From Synechococcus sp. J7-Johnson (GTDB lineage Bacteria; Cyanobacteriota; Cyanobacteriia; PCC-6307; Cyanobiaceae), in contig NZ_JAGQBU010000004.1 of assembly GCF_024345795.1 (NCBI RefSeq), positions 62,001 through 126,000 of the forward strand: a stretch of 64,000 nucleotides of DNA. Reading direction: 5' to 3'. Every line of letters begins with the position of its first letter. Position 1 is the stretch's first letter. Below the pieces are notes generated by a model that worked only from the letters and a program-made list of their open reading frames with translations, had not been told where the DNA came from and did not search any database. Positions 43,097 to 54,991 of this stretch are shown here, piece by piece. A program made the position numbers and the translations under genes.

Positions 43097-43390
43097 TCAG
43101 GGTTCGGGGCTGAGGGTCTCCAGCTGACGGCGCACATCTTCGATTGCCCGGTTCAGCTCGTTGACCTTGTGTTGCAGCTGCCGCTCCAGCAACGGACGCC
43201 GCACGCCGTCGTCTCCCTCACGGGAGCCTCCCTGCAGGCGCGAGAGAGTGAGACTGCGCCGCTGACGCTGGGCCAGGCGGCGGCGTTCCGCTTCAGCCAG
43301 CAACCACCAGGCCAGGCCCGCGGCACCGATCACCGCCCCGGCTACGGCACTGGCCAGGATGGGACTGGCGGGGGATCCGCGTTCGGCCAT
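43097..43390 (-). CDS. Small membrane protein with C-terminal coiled coil (97 aa)
   Basis: A 97-residue protein with one membrane span (about 10-29, ILASAVAGAVIGAAGLAWWLL), a basic patch (ERRRLAQRQRRS) and a C-terminal helix with heptad-like spacing (RQLQHKVNELNRAIEDVRRQLETL). I do not recognise it. It sits 36 bases after the GMC oxidoreductase gene on the same strand and 53 bases before ilvD. Confidence 0.65.
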   Translation of the reverse strand: MAERGSPASPILASAVAGAVIGAAGLAWWLLAEAERRRLAQRQRRSLTLSRLQGGSREGDDGVRRPLLERQLQHKVNELNRAIEDVRRQLETLSPEP

Positions 43391-43426: not shown

Positions 43427-44929
43427 CTAGAGCCGCTCCGCCATCCGAAGGGCATTGGCGATCACGGTGAGGCCTGGCGACACCATCGGGCAGCTGGGGA
43501 AGACACTGGCATCGGCGATGGTCAGGTTGACCATGCCGTGGACGCGTCCGTCGCGGTCGACGACTGAGAGGGCCGGATCGTCGCCCATGCGGCAGGTGCC
43601 GCAGGCGTGGCCGATTACCGCCAGGGGCGCCTCGCCACGGGGATAGAAGGGGGCCGGGCGCACCTGGGGGGTGAGCGGATCGGCGTCCACCGCTTTGAGC
43701 ACGGAGAGCCAGCGGTAAACGAGCCGGTCGTGGGCCTCGAGGTTGTTGGCCAGGTACTGGATGCTCAGGCGCTCCCCGCGCAACTCGATGCGGTTATCGG
43801 GATCGGGCAGCACCGGACTCATCGCCCACCAGCAGATCGAGCGCACCGCCAGCTGCTCCAGGGCGGCGTTGGGGAGCAACCGCTTGACGAGCGAGAGCAC
43901 GGGCGGCGACTCGGCGAACTGGGCGTCCTGCAGCACCCCGCCACCGGTTTCGATGTGGCCGAGCGGAAAGCTGACGTTCTGATCGCCCCAGACGTAGTCG
44001 TTGACCCCGAGGCTGCGGGGGAAGCGGCCGCTGTGGGTTTCGCGGGCCAGCTGCAGGATGGCGGTGAGCTGGGGTTTCATCAGGTTGCGGCCCACCTGGC
44101 CCGAGCCGTTTGCCAGGCCATCGGGATGAAGCTCGCTGCGGGATCGCAGCAGCAGGGCTGGTGTGTTGACCGCACCGGCCGCCAGCACCACCTGATCGCC
44201 GCGGAACAGCCAGAGCTGGCCATTGATCTCGGCTTCCACTCCCTTGACCTCGCGGCCGCTGGGATCCACGTGCAGCTGGGTGACCCGGGCGTTGCTGATC
44301 AGGCGGGCGCCGGAATGCTCGAGGGCCGGCTGTACACCGAACAGTTCGGCGTCACCGCTGGGATCCTCCTCAACCTCCGACCAGCTCAGCGGCAGGTCGT
44401 AGGGATGGCTGCCCTGGCGCTCCAGCCCCTGGCGCAGGGGCTGGAATAGGGGATCCAGCGGCAGGGGCTGATGGGGATAGGGGCCACTGCGAGGTGGCTC
44501 ATTCGGGTCGAGGCCAGCTTGGCCATGGACGCGGTAGAGCGCCTCGGCCCGTTCGTACCAGGGGGCGAGTTCGTCGTAGGTGATCGGCCAGGCGGGGGCC
44601 AACCCCTCCTGCAGGGGCAGGCCTTCGAACTCACGCGGCCACATCCGCTCGAGCACCCCACCCCAGATCTTGGTGTTACCACCCAGGGCGTAAATGGTCT
44701 GGGGGTTGAAGGGATCGCCGTCAGGTCCGAACCAGGCCTCACCGGGGTGGTAACGGTTCTTGCGGAACAGATCCACGCTGGCCACGTTCTGATCGGCCAG
44801 GTCCATGGCCCCTCCGCGCTCCAGCAGCAGCACCGAGCGGCCCTTGGCCGCGAGGGCACCGGCCAGGCTGCCGCCGCCGGCGCCGGAACCGATCACGATC
44901 ACATCGTGGTGCTGGTCGTCAAAGATCAT
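43427..44929 (-). CDS. GMC-family FAD-dependent oxidoreductase
   Basis: A 500-residue flavoprotein of the glucose-methanol-choline family. The dinucleotide motif VIVIGSGAGGGSLAGALAAKG is at residues about 10-30, with LGGNTKIWGGVLERM, the FAD-binding VVLAAGAVNTPALLLRSR and the C-terminal HACGTCRMGDDP and ADASVFPSCP...LTVIANALRMAE. There is no signal peptide, so it is probably cytoplasmic or on the inner face of the membrane. Its ATG overlaps the stop of oxidase subunit III (ATGA), which makes it the last gene of the terminal oxidase unit. The substrate is unknown; sugar or alcohol oxidation feeding the oxidase is inference. Confidence 0.88.
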   Translation of the reverse strand: MIFDDQHHDVIVIGSGAGGGSLAGALAAKGRSVLLLERGGAMDLADQNVASVDLFRKNRYHPGEAWFGPDGDPFNPQTIYALGGNTKIWGGVLERMWPREFEGLPLQEGLAPAWPITYDELAPWYERAEALYRVHGQAGLDPNEPPRSGPYPHQPLPLDPLFQPLRQGLERQGSHPYDLPLSWSEVEEDPSGDAELFGVQPALEHSGARLISNARVTQLHVDPSGREVKGVEAEINGQLWLFRGDQVVLAAGAVNTPALLLRSRSELHPDGLANGSGQVGRNLMKPQLTAILQLARETHSGRFPRSLGVNDYVWGDQNVSFPLGHIETGGGVLQDAQFAESPPVLSLVKRLLPNAALEQLAVRSICWWAMSPVLPDPDNRIELRGERLSIQYLANNLEAHDRLVYRWLSVLKAVDADPLTPQVRPAPFYPRGEAPLAVIGHACGTCRMGDDPALSVVDRDGRVHGMVNLTIADASVFPSCPMVSPGLTVIANALRMAERL

Positions 44930-45528
44930 GACCAGGCGTAGAGCAGAAGAAAGAGCAGCACCCAGATCACATCCACGAAGTGCCAGAACAAGGAGGTGGC
45001 GATCACCCCCTGCTCACCGGCTGCGTAGTTGGCCGGGCGGAAGGAGCGTTGCAGCATCAAGGCCATCAGCAGGATGCCGCTGAGCACATGCAGGCCATGG
45101 AAGCCGGTGAGCAGGTAAAAGCAACTGCCAAAACTGCCGCTGGTGATTCCGAACTCAAGCGAGCGCCATTCGATCGCCTGGCCGTAGAGGAACACGGCCC
45201 CCATGGCCATGCTCAGCAGCCAGAAGGCACGGAAGCCCCAGAGCTGCCCCCTGGAGAGGAAGTGCTCGGCCAGAGCCACCGTGCCACTGCTTGAAACAAG
45301 CACCACGGTGTAAAGCAATGGTGTGCGCCACTCCAGCCCCTCCACTCCTGGCGGCAGCCATTGCAGGGCGGAGAGCTTCAGCACCGCATAGCCGCTGAAG
45401 AAGGCCAGGAAGATTACGCTCTCAGAGCAGAGAAAGATGATGAAGCCGGTGAGGCTGTAGTTGGCGTGCGCCGCTTCATGGCCCTCTGGGGAAGGAGCAG
45501 CGGTATCAACGGGAGGGCTGATGGTCAT
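44926..45528 (-). CDS. ctaEII: Alternative respiratory terminal oxidase subunit III (CtaE-like)
   Basis: A 200-residue heme-copper oxidase subunit III with five predicted spans, the short form common in bacteria. Characteristic sequences: FLCSESVIFLAFFSGY, TGFHGLHVLSGILLM and the C-terminal FWHFVDVIWVLLFLLLY. It starts three bases after the subunit I stop and overlaps the GMC gene. Naming as the second (ARTO) set follows from the subunit II features. Confidence 0.93.
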   Translation of the reverse strand: MTISPPVDTAAPSPEGHEAAHANYSLTGFIIFLCSESVIFLAFFSGYAVLKLSALQWLPPGVEGLEWRTPLLYTVVLVSSSGTVALAEHFLSRGQLWGFRAFWLLSMAMGAVFLYGQAIEWRSLEFGITSGSFGSCFYLLTGFHGLHVLSGILLMALMLQRSFRPANYAAGEQGVIATSLFWHFVDVIWVLLFLLLYAWS

Positions 45529-45531
45529 GGT

Positions 45532-47223
45532 TCAGGCCTGCAGAAGGGCGCGCTCGATCTCTTCCTGGTGCTCCACCAGAGGCCGGCCGGTGCCGTAGCC
45601 GTAGGGACCGCTGATCACCGTGGGCACATGTTCCTCGAAATTCTCAGCTGGCGGCGGTGAAGGCAACAGCCACTCCAGGCCGATGGCATTCCAGGGATTG
45701 GCAGGGGCCTTGGCGCCACGAACCCAGGAACTGACCAGGTTGAGCAGGAAGGGAATGATCGACACCCCCAGAAGGAAGGCACCAAGACTGGCGATCACAT
45801 TCCAGAAGGCGAACTCCGGGTCGTAGGAGGAAACCCTGCGCGGCATGCCCATCAGGCCGAGAGGATGCATCGGAAAGAAGTTGAGGTTGGTGCCGATGAA
45901 GGTCAGCAGAAAGTGAAGCTTACCCAGGCCTTCATAATACATATGACCGGTAAACTTAGGGAACCAGTGATAGATGGCTGCATACACACCCATGGTGGCC
46001 GCGCCATAGATTACGTAGTGGAAATGTCCCACCACGAAATAGGTGTTATTGACATGAATATCGACCGGCACCGTGGCAAGCATGATGCCGGTCACACCGG
46101 CAAAGACGAAGTTGAACAATCCACCGAGGGCGAACAACATCGCCGTGTTCAGCCGCAACTTGCCTCCCCAGAGCGTGGCCAGCCAGGCAAACACCTTGAT
46201 GCCGGTAGGAACCGCGATCAACATCGTGGTGACCATGAAGGCATCGCGCATCCACTGGGGAACGCCGCTGGGGAACATGTGGTGCACCCACACGATCAGG
46301 CTCAGACCCACGATCACCAGGGAGGCGCCGGCCACGAAGGGATAGCCGAACAGAGGCTTGCGTGCATATACGGGAAACAGCTCAGAGAACACCCCGAACA
46401 CCGGCAGGATGATCACGTACACCGCGGGGTGGGAATAAAACCAGAAGAAGTGCTGATAAAGCACCGGATCACCGCCGCCCTCGGGTCGATAGAACGAGGT
46501 GCCCACCACCAGATCGAACAGCAGCATCACCGCACCACCTGTCAGGGCGGGCAGGCCGATCAGCTGAATCGTCTGGGCTGAGAAGGCGGTCCAGCAGAAG
46601 ATCGGCATCCTTGTGAGGGTCATCCCCGGGGCACGCATGCGCAGGATCGTGGTCACGAAGTTGACCGCGCCCATGATCGAGGAAATGCCCGAAAGGGCCA
46701 CCGCCAGGATCCAGAGGGCTTCACCATTGATCAGATGACCCAGTGGGTTCTGCAGACTCACCGGCGGATAGGACCACCAGCCTGACGAAGCCGGACCGCC
46801 CGGCACCAGAAAACTGGCCATCAGGATCACCCCGAACACCGGCACCAGCCAGAACGCGGCGGCATTGAGCTTGGGGAAGGCCATGTCGGGGGCGCCGATC
46901 ATGCAGGGAATCAACAGGTTGTTGAGCCCGTTGAGCACCGGGAAGATGAACAGGAAGAGCATGATCGTCCCGTGCATCGTGTAGAGCCCGTTGTACACAG
47001 TGCGATCGACCAGGTCCGCCTCCGGTGTGATCAGTTCACCGCGCATGATCATCGCCAGCAGACCGCCCACCAGCAGAAAGAAGAGGGCGGTGGCGATGTA
47101 CTGGATACCGATCACCTTGGCGTCGGTGTTGAAGCTGAAGAAACGCTTCCAGTTGTCCGGAGCACCGGGCACCGGATGGGGGGCCCTCAGGATGCGCGAT
47201 TCGACGCCGGCAGTGGAGGTCAT
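45532..47223 (-). CDS. ctaDII: Alternative respiratory terminal oxidase subunit I (CtaD-like, A2 type)
   Basis: A 563-residue, 12-span heme-copper oxidase catalytic subunit. Heme and CuB ligands are present: H84 (TMHGTIMLF), H265 and Y269 in YSHPAVY (263-269), H314-H315 (VWVHHMF), and H400/H402 (VVGHFHYVIYG). The motif YSHPxVY, with Ala in place of the channel glutamate of GHPEVY, is the mark of A2-type oxidases. That fits an alternative oxidase and not the aa3 cytochrome c oxidase of thylakoids. ATG 47223 is chosen; GTG 47265 would overlap subunit II. Confidence 0.94.
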   Translation of the reverse strand: MTSTAGVESRILRAPHPVPGAPDNWKRFFSFNTDAKVIGIQYIATALFFLLVGGLLAMIMRGELITPEADLVDRTVYNGLYTMHGTIMLFLFIFPVLNGLNNLLIPCMIGAPDMAFPKLNAAAFWLVPVFGVILMASFLVPGGPASSGWWSYPPVSLQNPLGHLINGEALWILAVALSGISSIMGAVNFVTTILRMRAPGMTLTRMPIFCWTAFSAQTIQLIGLPALTGGAVMLLFDLVVGTSFYRPEGGGDPVLYQHFFWFYSHPAVYVIILPVFGVFSELFPVYARKPLFGYPFVAGASLVIVGLSLIVWVHHMFPSGVPQWMRDAFMVTTMLIAVPTGIKVFAWLATLWGGKLRLNTAMLFALGGLFNFVFAGVTGIMLATVPVDIHVNNTYFVVGHFHYVIYGAATMGVYAAIYHWFPKFTGHMYYEGLGKLHFLLTFIGTNLNFFPMHPLGLMGMPRRVSSYDPEFAFWNVIASLGAFLLGVSIIPFLLNLVSSWVRGAKAPANPWNAIGLEWLLPSPPPAENFEEHVPTVISGPYGYGTGRPLVEHQEEIERALLQA

Positions 47224-47227
47224 GGGA

Positions 47228-48157
47228 TCAGCCGTCGTGGGGAAGGGTGTTGGAGCCGGGCACATTCACAAGCGGCGGCTGTGCCGGCTCGATGGTGGCG
47301 TAGCCACTGCGGCGTTCGCCGCTGAGCTGCTGGGCGTATTCGCGGGCCGCATCGCTGAGCCCCGGCTGGAGTGGCAGACGGGAGGCGCGCCGCAGCCAGT
47401 CCTGGTATGCCTCTTCGCTCTCCACCACCACATCGGCCTGGTTCGCGGCGAACCAGGTGCCGCTGTACTCGGAGTCGCGCAGGCGATAGCGCCCCGGACG
47501 AGTGGCAGTGAGGAAAAGGGTGATCGAGCGTCCAGGGATCACCTGCTGCTTGAGGCGGAAGGCCGGCACATAGAAGCCGTGGATCACGTCGTCGCTCTCC
47601 AGTTGGAGTCCGAGGCGACGGTCGAGAGGCAGGTGCAGCTCGGTGGACGACACCCCGGCCACTGGGTAGCGGAACTCCCACGACCACTGCCGGGCGATCA
47701 CCTGCACCTCCCCGCCGGGCAGAGGAGTGGCAGGCGCGGATTTTGCCGTGGCTGGGCCATGGGCATGGTCCATGGGGCCGATCAGGCCTATCTCCCGGTT
47801 CACCTGGATCGTGTAGGCGGCGATCGCCATCACCAGCACCAGGGGGATCACGGTCCAGACGATCTCGAGGGTGGTGTTGCCCTCAATCGGCTCCGCATCA
47901 CTCATGTCGTACTTCTCAGCCCGGTTGAAAAGCACCACCCAGACCATCACCGAGACCACGCCCACGAAGACGAAGGTGGCGACGGCCGTCTCGAAGCCGA
48001 AGAGGCCATCCACCAGAGGGGCCGCCGAGGAGGCCGAGACCGGCAACCAACGGGGGACCTGAGCCCCCATCCAGACACTCAGCAGGGTGAGCAGCACCAA
48101 CCAGACGGCCAGGCCGATCAGCCGGGGCAGGGGAAAGCGCTGAGGGGTGGTTGTCAT
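47228..48157 (-). CDS. ctaCII: Alternative respiratory terminal oxidase subunit II lacking the CuA site
   Basis: A 309-residue subunit II with N-terminal spans (about 12-32, 58-78 and 97-117) and a periplasmic cupredoxin domain (150-255). The first CuA-region histidine is kept (H193 in DVIHGFYVP), but the loop that normally reads CxExCGxxHxxM carries D228, S232, F236 and N239 in the ligand positions. So the binuclear copper site is lost. In Synechocystis, ARTO subunit II likewise lacks CuA, and a quinol or other donor is assumed in place of cytochrome c. The ATG overlaps the preceding DUF2231 stop (ATGA). Confidence 0.93.
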   Translation of the reverse strand: MTTTPQRFPLPRLIGLAVWLVLLTLLSVWMGAQVPRWLPVSASSAAPLVDGLFGFETAVATFVFVGVVSVMVWVVLFNRAEKYDMSDAEPIEGNTTLEIVWTVIPLVLVMAIAAYTIQVNREIGLIGPMDHAHGPATAKSAPATPLPGGEVQVIARQWSWEFRYPVAGVSSTELHLPLDRRLGLQLESDDVIHGFYVPAFRLKQQVIPGRSITLFLTATRPGRYRLRDSEYSGTWFAANQADVVVESEEAYQDWLRRASRLPLQPGLSDAAREYAQQLSGERRSGYATIEPAQPPLVNVPGSNTLPHDG

Positions 48158-48729
48158 GGCAGGGCCTCCCGCAGGCTGGCGCCTTCGCCCAGCAGCTGGC
48201 TAGCCGTGACGTGCACGCCGAACTCCACACCCAGCTGGGCACCGAGGGTGCCGTGCCAGGCCATAACAGCAAACACCATCAGACCCACCAACAGGTAGCC
48301 CCACTGCACCTGGCGGCCCATCTCACGACGCCAGCTGAAGCGCTGGAGTCCACGCCAGAGGGTCATCAACACGATCGCGAACAGCAGGCCCACGCCCACG
48401 GCCCCATGCCAGAGCATGGTGGCTGTGCTGCCCATGGCGAAGCTGCTGGTGACACCGGGGAGCGGATCGGCCAGCTGCATCTCCACGAAACCCGCTGCCA
48501 CCGTGAAGAAGCTGATCAGGCAGCAGGCCAGGAGGTTGTACCAGCCCACATCGTGAAGGCCGGAACGGGTGACCGGCAGGGCCAGGAAGCGGAACAGGCG
48601 CCGCTCGAAGGGGAAGAGCGCGCCAGCGATATCGAAGGCGATGGCAATCACGAACAGACCGATCGTGAGATGAACCAGGTTGGGGTGGATCGGCAGCCGG
48701 TAGGGCAGATCGTTGGCTCCAAGCTCCAT
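48154..48729 (-). CDS. DUF2231 membrane protein, second copy
   Basis: A 191-residue protein with four to five spans and the DUF2231 opening LPIHPNLVHLTIGLFVIAIAFDIAGALF, containing the H-P-x-x-V-H pair. A further histidine lies in a span (TMLWHGAVGVGLL). DUF2231 proteins are small membrane proteins with possible heme or metal ligands; no function is established. ATG 48729 overlaps the stop of the first copy (TGATG); GTG 48732 is also open. It is coupled at its 3' end to oxidase subunit II. Confidence 0.82.
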   Translation of the reverse strand: MELGANDLPYRLPIHPNLVHLTIGLFVIAIAFDIAGALFPFERRLFRFLALPVTRSGLHDVGWYNLLACCLISFFTVAAGFVEMQLADPLPGVTSSFAMGSTATMLWHGAVGVGLLFAIVLMTLWRGLQRFSWRREMGRQVQWGYLLVGLMVFAVMAWHGTLGAQLGVEFGVHVTASQLLGEGASLREALP

Positions 48730-49226
48730 CACACCAGACCTGCTCGCATCGCCTCCACCACCTTGACGGTGTGGAGGCCATAGACCCAGATCAACTGGTT
48801 CCCCAGCACAACCTGCACCACCACCAGGGCACTGAGCAGGCTGCCAGCCCCGAGAAAGGCCAGAGGCAGCTTCTGGGGATCACGGCTGCGGATCACGTAG
48901 CGCCAGGCGGTGAGTACGGAGAGCACTCCGGCCAGCACCCAGCCGAGGGTGCTGTGCAGGTTGAGGATGTCGCGGGAGGCGCCATAGGGGTTGGCCAGCC
49001 CTGCCTCCACCTGGCCGAAGATGATCGCGATGAAGATCGCCACCGTGGCGAAGAGCAGGTTCCAGAAGCTCACTTCGTACAGAGAAGGCTTGCCTGCCAG
49101 ACGGCCGATCAGATCGAAGACGAAGGCGATCAGGGCCATCGCAATCACGAAATGGACCACGATCGGGTGGATCGTATCGACCCAGGGGAGGTTGCGATCG
49201 TTGAGGGGAGGAAGAAGCTCGAACAT
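48729..49226 (-). CDS. DUF2231 membrane protein, first copy
   Basis: A 165-residue, four-span protein with the same motif, WVDTIHPIVVHFVIAMALIAFVFDLIGRL, and a second histidine in LNLHSTLGWVLAGVL. It is paralogous to the next gene but clearly diverged. ATG 49226 is taken as the start; the open frame to 49289 adds a segment unlike the family. It is the first gene of the oxidase unit, so the promoter should lie in 49227-49330, where I can see no clear elements. Confidence 0.82.
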   Translation of the reverse strand: MFELLPPLNDRNLPWVDTIHPIVVHFVIAMALIAFVFDLIGRLAGKPSLYEVSFWNLLFATVAIFIAIIFGQVEAGLANPYGASRDILNLHSTLGWVLAGVLSVLTAWRYVIRSRDPQKLPLAFLGAGSLLSALVVVQVVLGNQLIWVYGLHTVKVVEAMRAGLV

Positions 49227-49512: not shown

Positions 49513-51336
49513 TCACTCGCCCGCCTGGGCCGCTTCCGCCCGCCGCGGATCGACCGCCCCAAGAGTTCCCCCGCCGGGGAGGGCCTCCAGCGAGTGGGCT
49601 GCCCCCATTGCCGGAGTCAGCCGCCAGCGGTGACCCATCGCCTCCAGCAGCCTGAGGGTGTCAGGGCTGACGCCCTCCTCCACAGCCAGCTCATCGGGCC
49701 AGTGCTGGCTGTGGATCCGGCTGGCAGCCACCGCAGAGGCCAGGTTCAGGCCGTGCTCAAGCCGGTTGAGCAGCACCTGCAGCACCGTGGTGATGATGCG
49801 GCTGCCACCGGGGCTGCCGGTGGCCAGCAGCGGGCCACCATCGGGGCTGAGCACCAGGGTGGGGGCCATCGAGCTCAGCGGTTGCTTGCCCGGCTCGATC
49901 GCATTGGCCTTTCCCTGCACCAGACCGAAGGCATTGGCGACCCCCGGCCGGGCGGTGAAATCATCCATTTCGTTGTTGAGCAGGAAGCCGGCGCCCGGCA
50001 CGCTCACGCCGTTGCCGTAGGGGAAGTTGAGGGTGGTGGTGGTGGCCACCATCGTGCCGTCACGGTCGATCACCGAGAGATGGGTGGTGTTGAGGTTTTC
50101 AGCGGTGCGCGCGCCGGACAGGGGATCGAGCTCGCGGGCCGGCCGGTGGCGGCCGCGGCGGATCGTGCGGCGCAGCTCATCCGCATAGGCCTGGCTCATT
50201 AACCGCTCCAGGGGCATGGCCACGAAGCGGGGATCCCCCAGCCAGCGGTTGCGGTCGCGGTAGGCCAGGTTCATCGCCTCCGCCATCGGATGCAGGGCGG
50301 CGGCGCTGTTGGGCCCCAGGGCCGCCAGATCGAAGCCGTTCAGGATGTTGAGCAGCTGGATCAGGGTGACCCCGCCGGAGCTGGGCGGGGGCATGGCGAT
50401 CACGGGATGCCCACGCCAGGCACCCACCAGGGGGGGCTGAAGCCGGGCCCGGTAGCTGCTCAGATCCTCAGCGCTGATCAGGCCTCCCCGCCGGCGCATC
50501 AATGCCACCAGCTTCTGGGCCACCGGCCCTTGATAGAAGCCCTTGTCTCCCTCGGCGGCGATCTGCCGCAGGGTGGCCGCCAGCTGGGGTTGACGCAGGC
50601 GCTCGCCAGGCCGGTAGGGCTTCCCTCCGGGACGGAAGAACAGGCGCATCGATTCAGGATCAGCCCGCAACAGCGGTGCGGCGGCCTCCAGGGAATCGGC
50701 CAGGGCCTTGCTCACCACCACCCCCTCATCAGCCAGACGAATCGAGGGGGCGACCAGACGGCCCAGGGGCAGGCGGCCGTAGTGGCGGTGGGCCAGCAGC
50801 AGCCCTGCCACCGTGCCTGGCACCCCGGTGCTGAGCAGGCTGCGGGTGGCCTTGTGGCGATCCACAGCACCGGAGGCATCGAGCAGCAGATCTGGCCCGG
50901 CCGCCAGGGGAGCACTCTCCCGGAAGTTGATCGTCACCGCCCGGCCCTTCCCCACCCGCACCTCCTGTGGCTGAAGCGGCCGTCCACGCCTGAGCCGCTC
51001 CGGCTGCCAGAGCACGAGGAAGCCGCCGCCACCCAGGTTTCCCGCCTGGGGATGGGTGACCGCCAGGGCGAAGGAGCTGGCCACCGCCGCATCGACGGCA
51101 TTGCCCCCCTGCCGCAGCACATCACGCCCCACCCGGGACGCCTCCAGCTCCTGGCTGGCCACCATGCCCCCGGGCGACCAGAGCGGCTGGAAGCGCTGAC
51201 TGGCCTCCTGAAGCACATTGGCTGCTGCCGCCAGCGGCCACAGGCCGAAAGCCGCCAGCGGCAGCAGGGCCCATCCAACTGCCGGCCGCCGCCGCAGCAG
51301 CAGCCCTTTGGGAAGGCGGAGTTCAGGGATCGCCAT
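49513..51336 (-). CDS. ggt: Gamma-glutamyltranspeptidase
   Basis: A 607-residue periplasmic Ntn-hydrolase that cleaves gamma-glutamyl bonds, chiefly of glutathione, and self-processes. A signal peptide is likely at residues 1-39 (ending PLAAAA). Family features: GNAVDAAVASSFALAVTHPQAGNLGGGGFLV, the nucleophile T417 in NTTHLSVIDRDG, and PLSSMAPTLVLSPDG...GGSRIITTVLQV. ATG 51336 is used, 14 bases inside the upstream oxoprolinase gene; GTG 51345 is also open. The tight link to the oxoprolinase suggests a gamma-glutamyl salvage pathway. Confidence 0.93.
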   Translation of the reverse strand: MAIPELRLPKGLLLRRRPAVGWALLPLAAFGLWPLAAAANVLQEASQRFQPLWSPGGMVASQELEASRVGRDVLRQGGNAVDAAVASSFALAVTHPQAGNLGGGGFLVLWQPERLRRGRPLQPQEVRVGKGRAVTINFRESAPLAAGPDLLLDASGAVDRHKATRSLLSTGVPGTVAGLLLAHRHYGRLPLGRLVAPSIRLADEGVVVSKALADSLEAAAPLLRADPESMRLFFRPGGKPYRPGERLRQPQLAATLRQIAAEGDKGFYQGPVAQKLVALMRRRGGLISAEDLSSYRARLQPPLVGAWRGHPVIAMPPPSSGGVTLIQLLNILNGFDLAALGPNSAAALHPMAEAMNLAYRDRNRWLGDPRFVAMPLERLMSQAYADELRRTIRRGRHRPARELDPLSGARTAENLNTTHLSVIDRDGTMVATTTTLNFPYGNGVSVPGAGFLLNNEMDDFTARPGVANAFGLVQGKANAIEPGKQPLSSMAPTLVLSPDGGPLLATGSPGGSRIITTVLQVLLNRLEHGLNLASAVAASRIHSQHWPDELAVEEGVSPDTLRLLEAMGHRWRLTPAMGAAHSLEALPGGGTLGAVDPRRAEAAQAGE

Positions 51337-54300
51337 AGCCACCACCTCCGGGGGTCTCGATCACGAGGGCCTCGCCGGCCGCCAGCTCCAGCTGCACAGA
51401 TCCGCCCAGCTCCAGTTCGCTGCCATCGGCTCGGATCAGCCGGTTGCGGCCCAGCGCCCCAGCGCCACCGCCAGCCAGCCCGAACGGGGCCACCTCACGG
51501 GAGCTGGAGAGAATCGCCGCGGTCATCGGCTCGAGGAAGCGGATCCGGCGCGTCACCCCGTCACCGCCCCGCCAGCGGCCCACGCCGCCGCTGCCGCGCC
51601 GCAGGCCAAAGGCCTCCAGCCGCACCGGAAAGCGCTCCTCGAGAATTTCCGGGTCGGTGAGGCGCGAGTTGGTCATGTGGCTCTGCACCGCCGAAGCCCC
51701 TGCAAAACCCTGGCCATCGAGGCCGCGACCGGCGCCGCAGCCGCCGCAGATCGTTTCGTAGTACTGATAGCGCTGGTTGCCGAAGCTGAGGTTGTTCATG
51801 GTGCCCTGGGCAGCGGCCATCGCCCCCAGGGCGGCGAAGAGAGCGTTGGCGATCGCCTGAGACGTTTCGACGTTGCCGGCCACCACCGCAGCCGTCGGGC
51901 TCGGATGCAGCAGGCAACCCGGGGGCACCACCAGCTCAAGAGGCCTGAAACAGCCGGCATTGAGGGGCACCGCCTCCCCCACCATGCAGCGGAACACGTA
52001 GAGCACCACCGCCCGGGTGATCGCCAGGGGGGCGTTGCGGTTGCCGCTGTCCTGGGGGGAGGTGCCGGTGAAATCGATCACAGCGCGGCGGGCGGGGCGA
52101 TCGATGCGCACGGCCACCTGGATGCGCAGGCCGCCATCGAGGGGGAGGCTGAAGGCGCCGGGCTCAAGCCGATCGATCACCCGCCGCACCGCTTCGGCGC
52201 CGTTGTCCTGCACGTGGCCCATGAAGGCAGTCAGCCGCTGGAGCCCCTCCCGTCTGGCCAGGTCCACCAGCAACTGGGCGCCGAGTTGATTGGCGGCCAC
52301 CTGGGCCTGCAGATCAGCCAGCAGTTGCTCCGGGTTGCGGACGGGATGGGGACCGGAGGCGAGTCGCCGCTGCCAGTCGGCAGTGAGCAGCACGCCATCA
52401 CGCAGCAGGGGCACGTTGTCGAGCAGGAGGCCTTCGTCCGCAAGGCAGCGGCTGAAGGGGGGCATCGAGCCGGGGGTGATGCCCCCCACATCGGCATGGT
52501 GGCCTCGGGAGGCAACGAACCCAGCGTGGCTGGGCAGGAACACCGGGGTGATCACTGTGAGATCGGGGAGGTGGGTGCCGCCGTTGGCGGGGTCGTTGGA
52601 GACGATCGCGTCGCCGGGCTTCAGGGGAGGGCGCTCTCCCCGCCGCACCGCCGAGAGCAGGCTTTCCACGCTGGCCCCCATCGAGCCGAGATGTACCGGG
52701 ATATGGGGGGCGTTGGCCACCAGTTGCCCCTGGCAATCGAAGAGGGCACAGGAGAAATCAAGGCGCTCGCGGATGTTCACCGATCGGGCGCTCTGCTGCA
52801 GGCGCACACCCATCTGCTCGGCGATGGCACTGAAGCGGTGGTTGAACAACTCCAGGCTCACGGGATCCACCGCTGCCCCCAGCTGCGCTGGTCGGTCTGC
52901 CTGCTGCCCATGACTGAGCAGCAGGCAGCCGTCGGGGCGACACTCGGCCAGCCAGCCAGGCGCCAACCAGATGGTGCCGGTGGTCTCCACCACCAGGGCC
53001 GGCCCTTCGAGCCACTCACCAGGCGTCAGGGCATCGCGGCGGTGCAGCGGAACAGATCTCCAGGCACCACCGCAGTGGAGCTGGATCATCCTTTCCTCGA
53101 CTGCCAGAGAGGGCCGATCAAGGGGAGTTGCTGAGCCGATCTCGGCCGCAACAGGCGCAGCCACTGCAGGAGCAGGCGCCGCAGCCGCGTCAGCCACAGC
53201 CGCAACAGACTGCCCTGGAGCCACCACCTCCACCACCAGCCACTCCACCACCAGCTCGGCAGCTTCGGGGCGGTGGCCGAAGCGCCGCTCATGGTCGAGC
53301 TCGAACTGCTGCCGCAGCAGCCTGGCGTCCTGCAGCGGCAGGGTGAGCGTTCGCTCATTGGCACCGAGCCGCACCCCCACACTCACTTCGGCTCGGGCTT
53401 CGGCAGCCAGGGCCCGCTGGCCCCGCTTGAGCAGGGCGCGGGACTGCTGCTGGAGCTGCTCCACCAGAGCCTGATCCAGGCGAAGGCGCACCAGCTCCTG
53501 CAGCAGCAGGCGCTGGTCGGCCAGACCGATGCCATAGGCCGAAAACACCCCGGCCAGGGGATGGAGCAGCACCCGGGCCATGCCCAGCCGCTCAGCCAGG
53601 GCACAGGCGTGCTGGCCGCCTGCGCCACCAAAGCAGATAAGCGTGGCGCCGCGCACATCGTGGCCCCGCTGGATCGAGATGCGCCGGATCGCCTCTGCCA
53701 TCCGCTCGATGGCGACCGCCAGGCCCCCTTCCGCCAGGTCCTCGGCCGTGGTGGGAACTCCGCTGGCCTGGCCCACCAGCTCCGCCAGCTGCTGAAACCC
53801 CCGCTGTACCACCGCCGCATCGGGCCCCTGATCGCGGCCTGGCCCGAAGACCGCCGGGAACGCCTCCGGCTGGAGGCGGCCCAGCAGCAGGTTGGCGTCG
53901 GTGATCGTGAGCGGCCCGCCCCGGCGGTAGCAGGCAGGCCCGGGATCGGCCCCGGCTGAGCTGGGCCCCACCTGCAGGCGCTGGCCATCGAAGTGCAGCA
54001 CCGAGCCACCACCGGCCGCCACGGTGTGGATCGGCAGCATCTCCGCCTGCAGGCTGAGGCCGGCAATCTCCGTCTCCTGGCGGCGATCCCAGCCCGGGGG
54101 GGGGCCACCGGCCTCCACATGGAAGACATCGGTGGAAGTGCCGCCCATGTCGAAGCCGACGATGGGCGTGCTCCCTGCCGCCAGCCGTACCGCCGCCACC
54201 ATGCCGCCGGCGGGGCCGGAGAGGATCGTGTCCTTGGCCTTGAGCAGCTCCGGTGCCACCAGGCCACCGCTCGACTGCATCACCCGCAGGCGGCAGTGGG

Positions 54301-54991
54301 CTCCGAGCTCGCAGCGCAGCTGATCCAGGTAGGCCACCAGGGCCGGTGCAACGGTGGCCTCCACCACAGCCGTCTGCGCCCGGGGCACCAGCCGGGGCCT
54401 CTGGCCCACCTGGTGGGAGAGCACAACCGGCCCAAAGCCGAACGGGCGCAGCCACTCGGCCAGCTGCAGTTCATGGCCCGGATGGCGGGCGCTGTGCAGC
54501 AGGGCCACCGCGCAACTGCTGATGCCGTCGCGGCGAACGTCGTTGAGGGCCTGCTCCAGGGCTGCATCGAGGCGCAGCGGCGTCAGCTCCGTGCCATCGG
54601 CCGCCAGCCGGCCCTCCACCTCAAGCACCCGCCGGTAGCGCGGAGCCGGCCGCTCAATGTGCAGGGCAAACAGATCGGGCCTGTGCTGGTCACCGATCCA
54701 GGCGGCATCGGCAAAACCGCTGCTGATCAGCAACAGGGTGGGAGCACCCCGATCTTCCAGCAGGGCATTGGTGGCCACCGTGGTGCCGATCCGCACCTCG
54801 CTGACCGCCCCGGCAGGAAGCGGCTGGCCGGAAGGCAGCCCCAGCAACTCGCGCATGGCGGCCACCGCCGGATCCCCGGCCAGCTGCGGCTGCTGCGAGA
54901 GCACCTTGCGAACCACAAGCTCGCCGCCGGGGGCACGGCCCACCAGATCGGTGAAGGTGCCACCCCGATCAATCGAGAAGCTCCAGCCCAC
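51323..54991 (-). CDS. 5-oxoprolinase-type hydantoinase (HyuA-HyuB fusion)
   Basis: A 1222-residue fusion of hydantoinase A and B domains, the architecture of eukaryotic and some bacterial ATP-dependent 5-oxoprolinases. The N-terminal ASKHA-like half starts FSIDRGGTFTDLVGRAPGG and has FDMGGTSTDVF and FGGAGGQHACALAERLG; the HyuB half begins near residue 700 (VDPVSLELFNHRFSAIAEQMG) and includes NDPANGGTHLPDLTVI and GHHADVGGITPGSMPP. It converts 5-oxoproline to glutamate with ATP. The start is GTG 54991, nine bases after yajQ. Hydantoin hydrolysis cannot be excluded. Confidence 0.9.
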   Translation of the reverse strand: MGWSFSIDRGGTFTDLVGRAPGGELVVRKVLSQQPQLAGDPAVAAMRELLGLPSGQPLPAGAVSEVRIGTTVATNALLEDRGAPTLLLISSGFADAAWIGDQHRPDLFALHIERPAPRYRRVLEVEGRLAADGTELTPLRLDAALEQALNDVRRDGISSCAVALLHSARHPGHELQLAEWLRPFGFGPVVLSHQVGQRPRLVPRAQTAVVEATVAPALVAYLDQLRCELGAHCRLRVMQSSGGLVAPELLKAKDTILSGPAGGMVAAVRLAAGSTPIVGFDMGGTSTDVFHVEAGGPPPGWDRRQETEIAGLSLQAEMLPIHTVAAGGGSVLHFDGQRLQVGPSSAGADPGPACYRRGGPLTITDANLLLGRLQPEAFPAVFGPGRDQGPDAAVVQRGFQQLAELVGQASGVPTTAEDLAEGGLAVAIERMAEAIRRISIQRGHDVRGATLICFGGAGGQHACALAERLGMARVLLHPLAGVFSAYGIGLADQRLLLQELVRLRLDQALVEQLQQQSRALLKRGQRALAAEARAEVSVGVRLGANERTLTLPLQDARLLRQQFELDHERRFGHRPEAAELVVEWLVVEVVAPGQSVAAVADAAAAPAPAVAAPVAAEIGSATPLDRPSLAVEERMIQLHCGGAWRSVPLHRRDALTPGEWLEGPALVVETTGTIWLAPGWLAECRPDGCLLLSHGQQADRPAQLGAAVDPVSLELFNHRFSAIAEQMGVRLQQSARSVNIRERLDFSCALFDCQGQLVANAPHIPVHLGSMGASVESLLSAVRRGERPPLKPGDAIVSNDPANGGTHLPDLTVITPVFLPSHAGFVASRGHHADVGGITPGSMPPFSRCLADEGLLLDNVPLLRDGVLLTADWQRRLASGPHPVRNPEQLLADLQAQVAANQLGAQLLVDLARREGLQRLTAFMGHVQDNGAEAVRRVIDRLEPGAFSLPLDGGLRIQVAVRIDRPARRAVIDFTGTSPQDSGNRNAPLAITRAVVLYVFRCMVGEAVPLNAGCFRPLELVVPPGCLLHPSPTAAVVAGNVETSQAIANALFAALGAMAAAQGTMNNLSFGNQRYQYYETICGGCGAGRGLDGQGFAGASAVQSHMTNSRLTDPEILEERFPVRLEAFGLRRGSGGVGRWRGGDGVTRRIRFLEPMTAAILSSSREVAPFGLAGGGAGALGRNRLIRADGSELELGGSVQLELAAGEALVIETPGGGGYGDP

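Follow-up and report, generated by a model that had tools for sequence, protein, structure and literature searches.

A conserved cyanobacterial operon joining an alternative respiratory terminal oxidase, two DUF2231 membrane proteins and an apparently undescribed GMC-family flavoprotein partner

The stretch of DNA analysed here, termed the window, comprises 64,000 nucleotides of contig NZ_JAGQBU010000004.1 of Synechococcus sp. J7-Johnson. It carries six adjacent genes encoding the three subunits of an alternative respiratory terminal oxidase (ARTO), two DUF2231 membrane proteins and a flavin adenine dinucleotide (FAD) protein of the GMC family, termed GMC1 (Table 1). The six identities (DUF2231 twice, COX2, COX1, COX3 and GMC) are backed by both Pfam and NCBIfam, and both DUF2231 scores lie above the curated PF09990 cut-off of 26.4 bits. 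The genes and their tight spacing had been reported in a first-pass annotation made from the sequence alone, and both were borne out. From DUF2231-1 to GMC1 the junctions are, in order, TGATG, ATGA, 4 bp, 3 bp and ATGA. The 4-bp gap between subunits II and I presumes a subunit I start at 47223; the ATG at 47265 would overlap subunit II. An in-frame GTG one codon 5' of the DUF2231-2 ATG yields a protein of 192 amino acids. Subunits II, I and III lie in one operon, as is characteristic of ARTO, and the unit is almost certainly an ARTO operon encoding an A2-type heme-copper oxidase without CuA. ARTO is widespread in cyanobacteria and tied to iron reduction and heterocyst respiration; no electron donor has been agreed on for it, and the enzyme is commonly classed among the bo3 quinol oxidases.

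Table 1 Genes of the oxidase unit and the adjoining small gene in the window.
Gene	Position	Strand	Length, start and family match
DUF2231 protein 1 (DUF2231-1)	48729..49226	-	165 aa, four predicted transmembrane helices; Pfam PF09990, 123 bits
DUF2231 protein 2 (DUF2231-2)	48154..48729	-	191 aa from ATG in TGATG, four predicted transmembrane helices; Pfam PF09990, 120 bits
ARTO subunit II (ctaC2)	47228..48157	-	Pfam COX2_TM/COX2
ARTO subunit I (ctaD2)	45532..47265	-	alternative in-frame start 47223; Pfam COX1, 515 bits
ARTO subunit III (ctaE2)	44926..45528	-	Pfam COX3, 112 bits
GMC-family FAD protein (GMC1)	43427..44929	-	500 aa; Pfam GMC_oxred_C/N
ssl2009-like small thylakoid protein gene	43097..43390	-	NCBIfam NF053524, 32 bits, under cut-off 58

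In subunit II the CuA motif C-x-E-x-C-x3-H is replaced by D228-x-E-x-S232-x3-F236, with D228 and S232 at the positions of the two CuA cysteines and F236 at that of the second histidine. These residues are kept in 117–118 of 118 relatives and the CuA ligands are replaced in all of them, which confirms the CuA-less subunit II of the first-pass annotation. The heme ligands and the Tyr-His pair of subunit I are kept in 102/102 sequences, as are the D- and K-channel residues (one Thr in 101/102), so that oxygen reduction is under selection. A2-type heme-copper oxidases carry Tyr-Ser in place of the D-channel Glu. A YSHPxVY (Tyr-Ser-His-Pro) motif and an Ala at the E286 position occur in all 102 subunits I, and judged by these residues ARTO subunit I is an A2-type heme-copper oxidase.

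A review describes ARTO as a bo3-type quinol oxidase whose further subunits are unclear (PMC6616624). Escherichia coli cytochrome bo3 (cyoABCD) shares with ARTO a CuA-less subunit II and a complete heme-copper site, and its CyoB sequence served as the yardstick for aligning quinol-site residues. However, ARTO subunit I lacks R71, D75, H98, Q101 and E286, has the YSHP motif and scores as CtaD-like (665 bits for CtaD versus 428 bits for CyoB). At the positions of the four quinol-site residues (R71, D75, H98 and Q101) ARTO carries Val/Ile, Leu/Phe, Val and Ala/Gly/Ser, respectively, all of them hydrophobic or small in 102/102 sequences; those of the window (V, L, V and G) do not constitute a bo3 quinol site. 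The residue counts thus argue against the bo3-type label. The sequences support the loss of CuA, not the presence of a bo3 quinol site, and would be compatible with quinol oxidation at another site.

Conservation of the unit was assessed in a phylum sample of 244 drawn cyanobacterial genomes by comparing searches for ARTO-type subunit II, DUF2231 and the GMC orthologue (threshold over 420 bits; tallies counted by hand). ARTO-type subunit II was present in 57/244 genomes, and DUF2231 matches accompanied it in all 57. The GMC orthologue was found in 25/244 genomes, every one of them among the 57 (Fisher p about 1e-18, uncorrected for ancestry, related genomes not being independent), and in 12 of the 13 families having ARTO. 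In all but two of the 25 genomes it lies downstream of the oxidase on the same strand; the exceptions are G340 (locus L152), where the gene is convergent and divergent in sequence, and G333, where it sits on another contig and subunit II at a contig end. Within the Cyanobiaceae, a family assignment based on gene content and genome size, the orthologue occurs in 67/151 genomes. It directly follows subunit III in 30/30 of the best Cyanobiaceae loci, from many genera, and the order DUF2231-1, DUF2231-2, II, I, III, GMC is complete in 20/20 long loci and also kept in 10 further families. Nostoc-type genomes keep DUF2231-DUF2231-II-I-III, and GMC is absent downstream.

A contig scan with the DUF2231-2 profile among named genomes yielded 80 loci, all with the DUF2231 pair. 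GMC lies downstream in 61 of the 72 that reach subunit III (gap −36 to 2,587 bp), a proportion that is no population frequency because the locus set was drawn by similarity to the GMC-bearing lineage. On a quick tree of subunit I, midpoint-rooted for drawing only, the loci without GMC require 4–6 changes and are more clustered than in shuffles, a pattern that fits an old association with repeated losses. Clustering of all open reading frames of the long loci showed that only the six genes recur widely around ARTO, and chance neighbourhood was rejected, since the arrangement is kept across the phylum; conservation across relatives likewise excluded the view that the unit as a whole is a passenger. 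The six genes form a genuine unit whose conservation is strong. Separation of the DUF2231 and GMC genes from the oxidase in relatives, which would have spoken against the single respiratory module proposed in the first-pass annotation, was not found; the neighbourhoods are conserved and support that proposal.

The complete unit is also plasmid-borne, on plasmid A of Trichormus variabilis ATCC 29413 (L242), with cydAB next downstream and a BlaI/CopY regulator, an M56 protease, a TonB receptor and an MFS transporter on its upstream side. Calothrix sp. NIES-3974 (L186, L217) carries ARTO twice, with GMC at one copy but not at the other, and offers a natural comparison.

The head of the operon is known from Anabaena sp. 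PCC 7120, whose ARTO (cox3, Qox) operon alr2729-alr2730-coxB3-coxA3-coxC3 likewise begins with two membrane-protein genes, alr2729 and alr2730, followed by II, I and III, with a CuA-less subunit II; it differs in that the reported operon names no GMC gene (PMC6616624). From gene order we infer that alr2729 and alr2730 are DUF2231 proteins; the matching order in Trichormus variabilis is annotated DUF2231-DUF2231-coxII. Transcripts of alr2729, alr2730, cox3B and cox3A fall together in one data set (−4.3, −3.8, −4.2 and −5.1; PMC7065334), which again favours one module. The DUF2231 proteins are very probably tied functionally to ARTO. A literature search for DUF2231 together with an oxidase returned nothing relevant.

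Five residues are invariant in each DUF2231 protein: H20, H25, E74, H91 and H152 in DUF2231-1 (120/120 sequences) and H16, H21, E84, H109 and H174 in DUF2231-2 (120/120; numbered from the GTG). A W-R-x3-R motif is invariant in both (120/120). The first-pass suggestion that the histidines of these proteins could bind heme or a metal is thereby supported and extended to four His and one Glu, and heme binding stays a candidate function. AlphaFold2 models of both proteins are four-helix bundles (pLDDT 82 for DUF2231-1 and 77 for DUF2231-2) in which the conserved His and Glu all lie at one end. The loops opposite are positive, with averages of 3.8 and 4.7 Lys plus Arg in loop 3–4, and by the positive-inside rule the His4-Glu cluster is therefore predicted on the periplasmic side. 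A Foldseek search of both models in the Protein Data Bank (PDB) gave no match under E 0.1. The structures matched were generic helical bundles, oxidase subunit III and pieces of bd oxidase, at a TM-score (query length) of at most about 0.55, and the best hits of a VIA search (Z 13–14) were unrelated designed bundles. A DUF2231-1 profile search against PDB sequences gave no match, and non-cyanobacterial plasmid records contained no DUF2231-1 at E 1e-3.

The DUF2231 pair also occurs in other surroundings. In two Synechocystis-like genomes (L157, L159) a Pyr_redox_2 flavoprotein resembling type-2 NADH dehydrogenase precedes the pair, an arrangement that probably corresponds to ndbC-sll1485-sll1486; in L157 subunit II lies away from the pair. 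A flavoprotein of the same type is near the pair in L152. On Gloeothece plasmid Cy782201 the pair has no oxidase beside it, but genes for a copper-binding protein and a Rieske protein are close by. In L160 and L243 the pair adjoins glucoamylase (GH15) and SDR genes. Cyanobacteria also have single DUF2231 paralogues, in some cases adjacent to an LmeA-like gene; being located elsewhere, these are uninformative on oxidase function.

We propose that the DUF2231 proteins belong to the oxidase as subunits or act closely with it, that their periplasmic His4-Glu site would bind heme b, a metal or quinol, and that this site would hand electrons to subunit I in place of CuA or a bo3-type quinol site. 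This role in electron entry is put forward tentatively. A doubtful but serious alternative is that the pair consists of assembly or copper/heme-delivery factors of ARTO and carries no electrons. Genes for oxidase assembly factors are often found in such operons, a one-sided His4-Glu cluster would suit a metal-binding chaperone, the BlaI/CopY regulator and M56 protease precede the operon on the Trichormus plasmid, and the copper-binding protein near the Gloeothece pair is a four-helix protein. However, many heme-copper oxidases do without such a pair, and the pair stands apart from ctaC on plasmid Cy782201 and in L157, in the latter beside the Pyr_redox_2 flavoprotein.

The module could instead be mainly a ferric reductase that delivers electrons, by way of the oxidase or of DUF2231, to Fe(III) in the periplasm, although we consider this unlikely. 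According to the literature ARTO resides in the cytoplasmic membrane and responds to low iron, a Synechocystis mutant without ctaD2/ctaE2 shows slower iron reduction and uptake, and ARTO is enriched in low-iron Prochlorococcus (PMC10119275, PMC7676907). The periplasmic His/Glu site might bind iron, and the plasmid copy has genes for a TonB-dependent receptor and an MFS transporter in its vicinity. Against a ferric reductase stand the complete heme-copper site and D- and K-channels in 102/102 or 101/102 subunits I, and the use of the operon by Anabaena in heterocysts, where oxygen removal is needed (PMC6616624).

GMC1 contains the FAD-binding N-terminal and GMC_oxred_C domains, which place it in the GMC superfamily by Pfam, and no signal peptide was evident from reading its sequence. 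Its best NCBIfam match is the mycofactocin dehydrogenase MftG, at a score that does not confer membership (TIGR03970, 75.5 versus a cut-off of 387.45 bits); MftG is itself a GMC protein, with a proposed role in supplying electrons to respiration. The closest solved chains belong to the same superfamily and are FAD glucose dehydrogenase alpha (E 4e-33, whole length) and the fructose dehydrogenase large subunit (8e-22). GMC1 differs from these enzymes in that its His/Asn dyad is unconserved, their iron-sulphur-type Cys cluster is absent save in a few rows, and no small-subunit or cytochrome c partner genes lie beside it. The FAD motif, E37, W367-W368, N395-N396, C446 and H464 are near-invariant. 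Position 441 is His in 22/91 orthologues and N, Y, S, L, F or V in 69/91; position 484 is Asn in 3/90 and Ser, Gly (most), Thr, Pro or Met in 87/90. The catalytic pair is complete in only 2 of about 90 orthologues, and the window protein, with H441 and S484, departs from the canonical alcohol- or sugar-oxidising enzymes. Ranked by entropy among the columns of the protein, 441 and 484 stand at the 75th and 66th percentiles. A paralogue, GMC2, located 2.9 kb downstream in many Cyanobiaceae, retains both His and Asn in these columns and carries a Cys-rich insert that is missing from GMC1 save in a few rows, which argues against misalignment of the catalytic columns. From these residues we conclude that most GMC1 proteins have been released from canonical alcohol oxidation.

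GMC2 and an MGH1/GH63-like glycosidase gene lie directly 3' of GMC1 in L037:10920-15244 and similar Cyanobiaceae loci; in the clade of the window ssl2009-ilvD takes their place.

We propose that GMC1, as an FAD protein of the cytoplasm, acts together with ARTO and would give electrons to ARTO or the quinone pool from some donor by a route other than canonical His/Asn alcohol oxidation, in a flavin electron-transfer or reductase role. Whether it is a redox rather than a structural partner we regard as evenly balanced. The first-pass annotation had read GMC1 as a dehydrogenase feeding sugar or alcohol electrons into the chain. Respiratory glucose and fructose dehydrogenases are in fact its closest relatives of solved structure, the window protein has H441, and glycosidase genes and a canonical GMC2 are next door in many relatives; yet the non-conserved catalytic pair weakens this reading, as does the scarcity of iron-sulphur-type cysteines, and an ordinary dehydrogenase feeding the quinone pool seems improbable. 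A mere passenger held in place by operon history is more improbable still: GMC1 is missing from Nostoc-type loci (5/5 rows of one clade) and gaps to CtaE reach 2.6 kb in some loci, but it stands beside ARTO in 12 families with differing outer neighbours, never occurs without ARTO in the phylum sample and has many near-invariant residues outside the catalytic pair. GMC1 is thus a conserved and apparently undescribed flavoprotein partner of ARTO; no published mention of a GMC gene with ARTO or a cyanobacterial oxidase was found in the open literature, subscription papers lying outside the search.

Taken together, an ARTO with electron entry through DUF2231 and GMC1 as an accessory donor has, in our estimate, about an even chance of being correct. 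Several points weigh against it. The DUF2231 models resemble generic four-helix bundles, and the proteins are at most candidate cofactor binders; because the conserved histidines are all gathered at one end of the membrane, there is no support for a two-heme path through it; the predicted periplasmic sites and the cytoplasmic GMC1 would be on opposite sides of the membrane and need not act in series; and GMC1 would be dispensable for the oxidase in Nostoc-type loci, being absent next to ARTO there. A parallel is the quinol oxidase complex SoxABCD of Sulfolobus, in which a heme-copper oxidase with a CuA-less subunit II operates together with an additional redox subunit in the membrane; SoxC, a cytochrome b, belongs to a different family from DUF2231. 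The bolder view that ARTO, instead of being a bo3-like quinol oxidase of three subunits, is a larger complex, in which the DUF2231 pair forms a new periplasmic redox centre (heme, metal or quinol) replacing CuA and the GMC protein is a former alcohol dehydrogenase converted into a dedicated electron-transfer flavoprotein of the oxidase, is a long shot. The residue counts name the DUF2231 pair, with its invariant potential ligands, and GMC1 as candidates for the missing parts of ARTO electron entry, a question that is directly testable because each candidate can be removed by deleting one gene in a tractable strain.

The window genome (G000; 2.99 Mb, 68 contigs, 99.96% complete) holds exactly two DUF2231 genes, both in the ARTO operon. 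Outside the operon it has a further gene for subunit I and, on a different contig from the window, one more GMC gene. On the 3' side of GMC1 come, in the same orientation, the ssl2009-like gene (36-bp gap) and then ilvD (53-bp gap), and a terminator scan found no terminator-like site between the three genes, so the transcript may extend past GMC1 into both. The ssl2009-like gene adjoins GMC only in the clade of the window (L033-L036). A promoter scan of the window locus gave no hit, and terminator-like sites were about as frequent as expected by chance. On the 5' side a gamma-glutamyltranspeptidase gene ends 286 bp before DUF2231-1; it lies beside a 1222-aa open reading frame that by eye is hydantoinase/5-oxoprolinase-like (window 49513-54991), and it is kept upstream of ARTO in many relatives.

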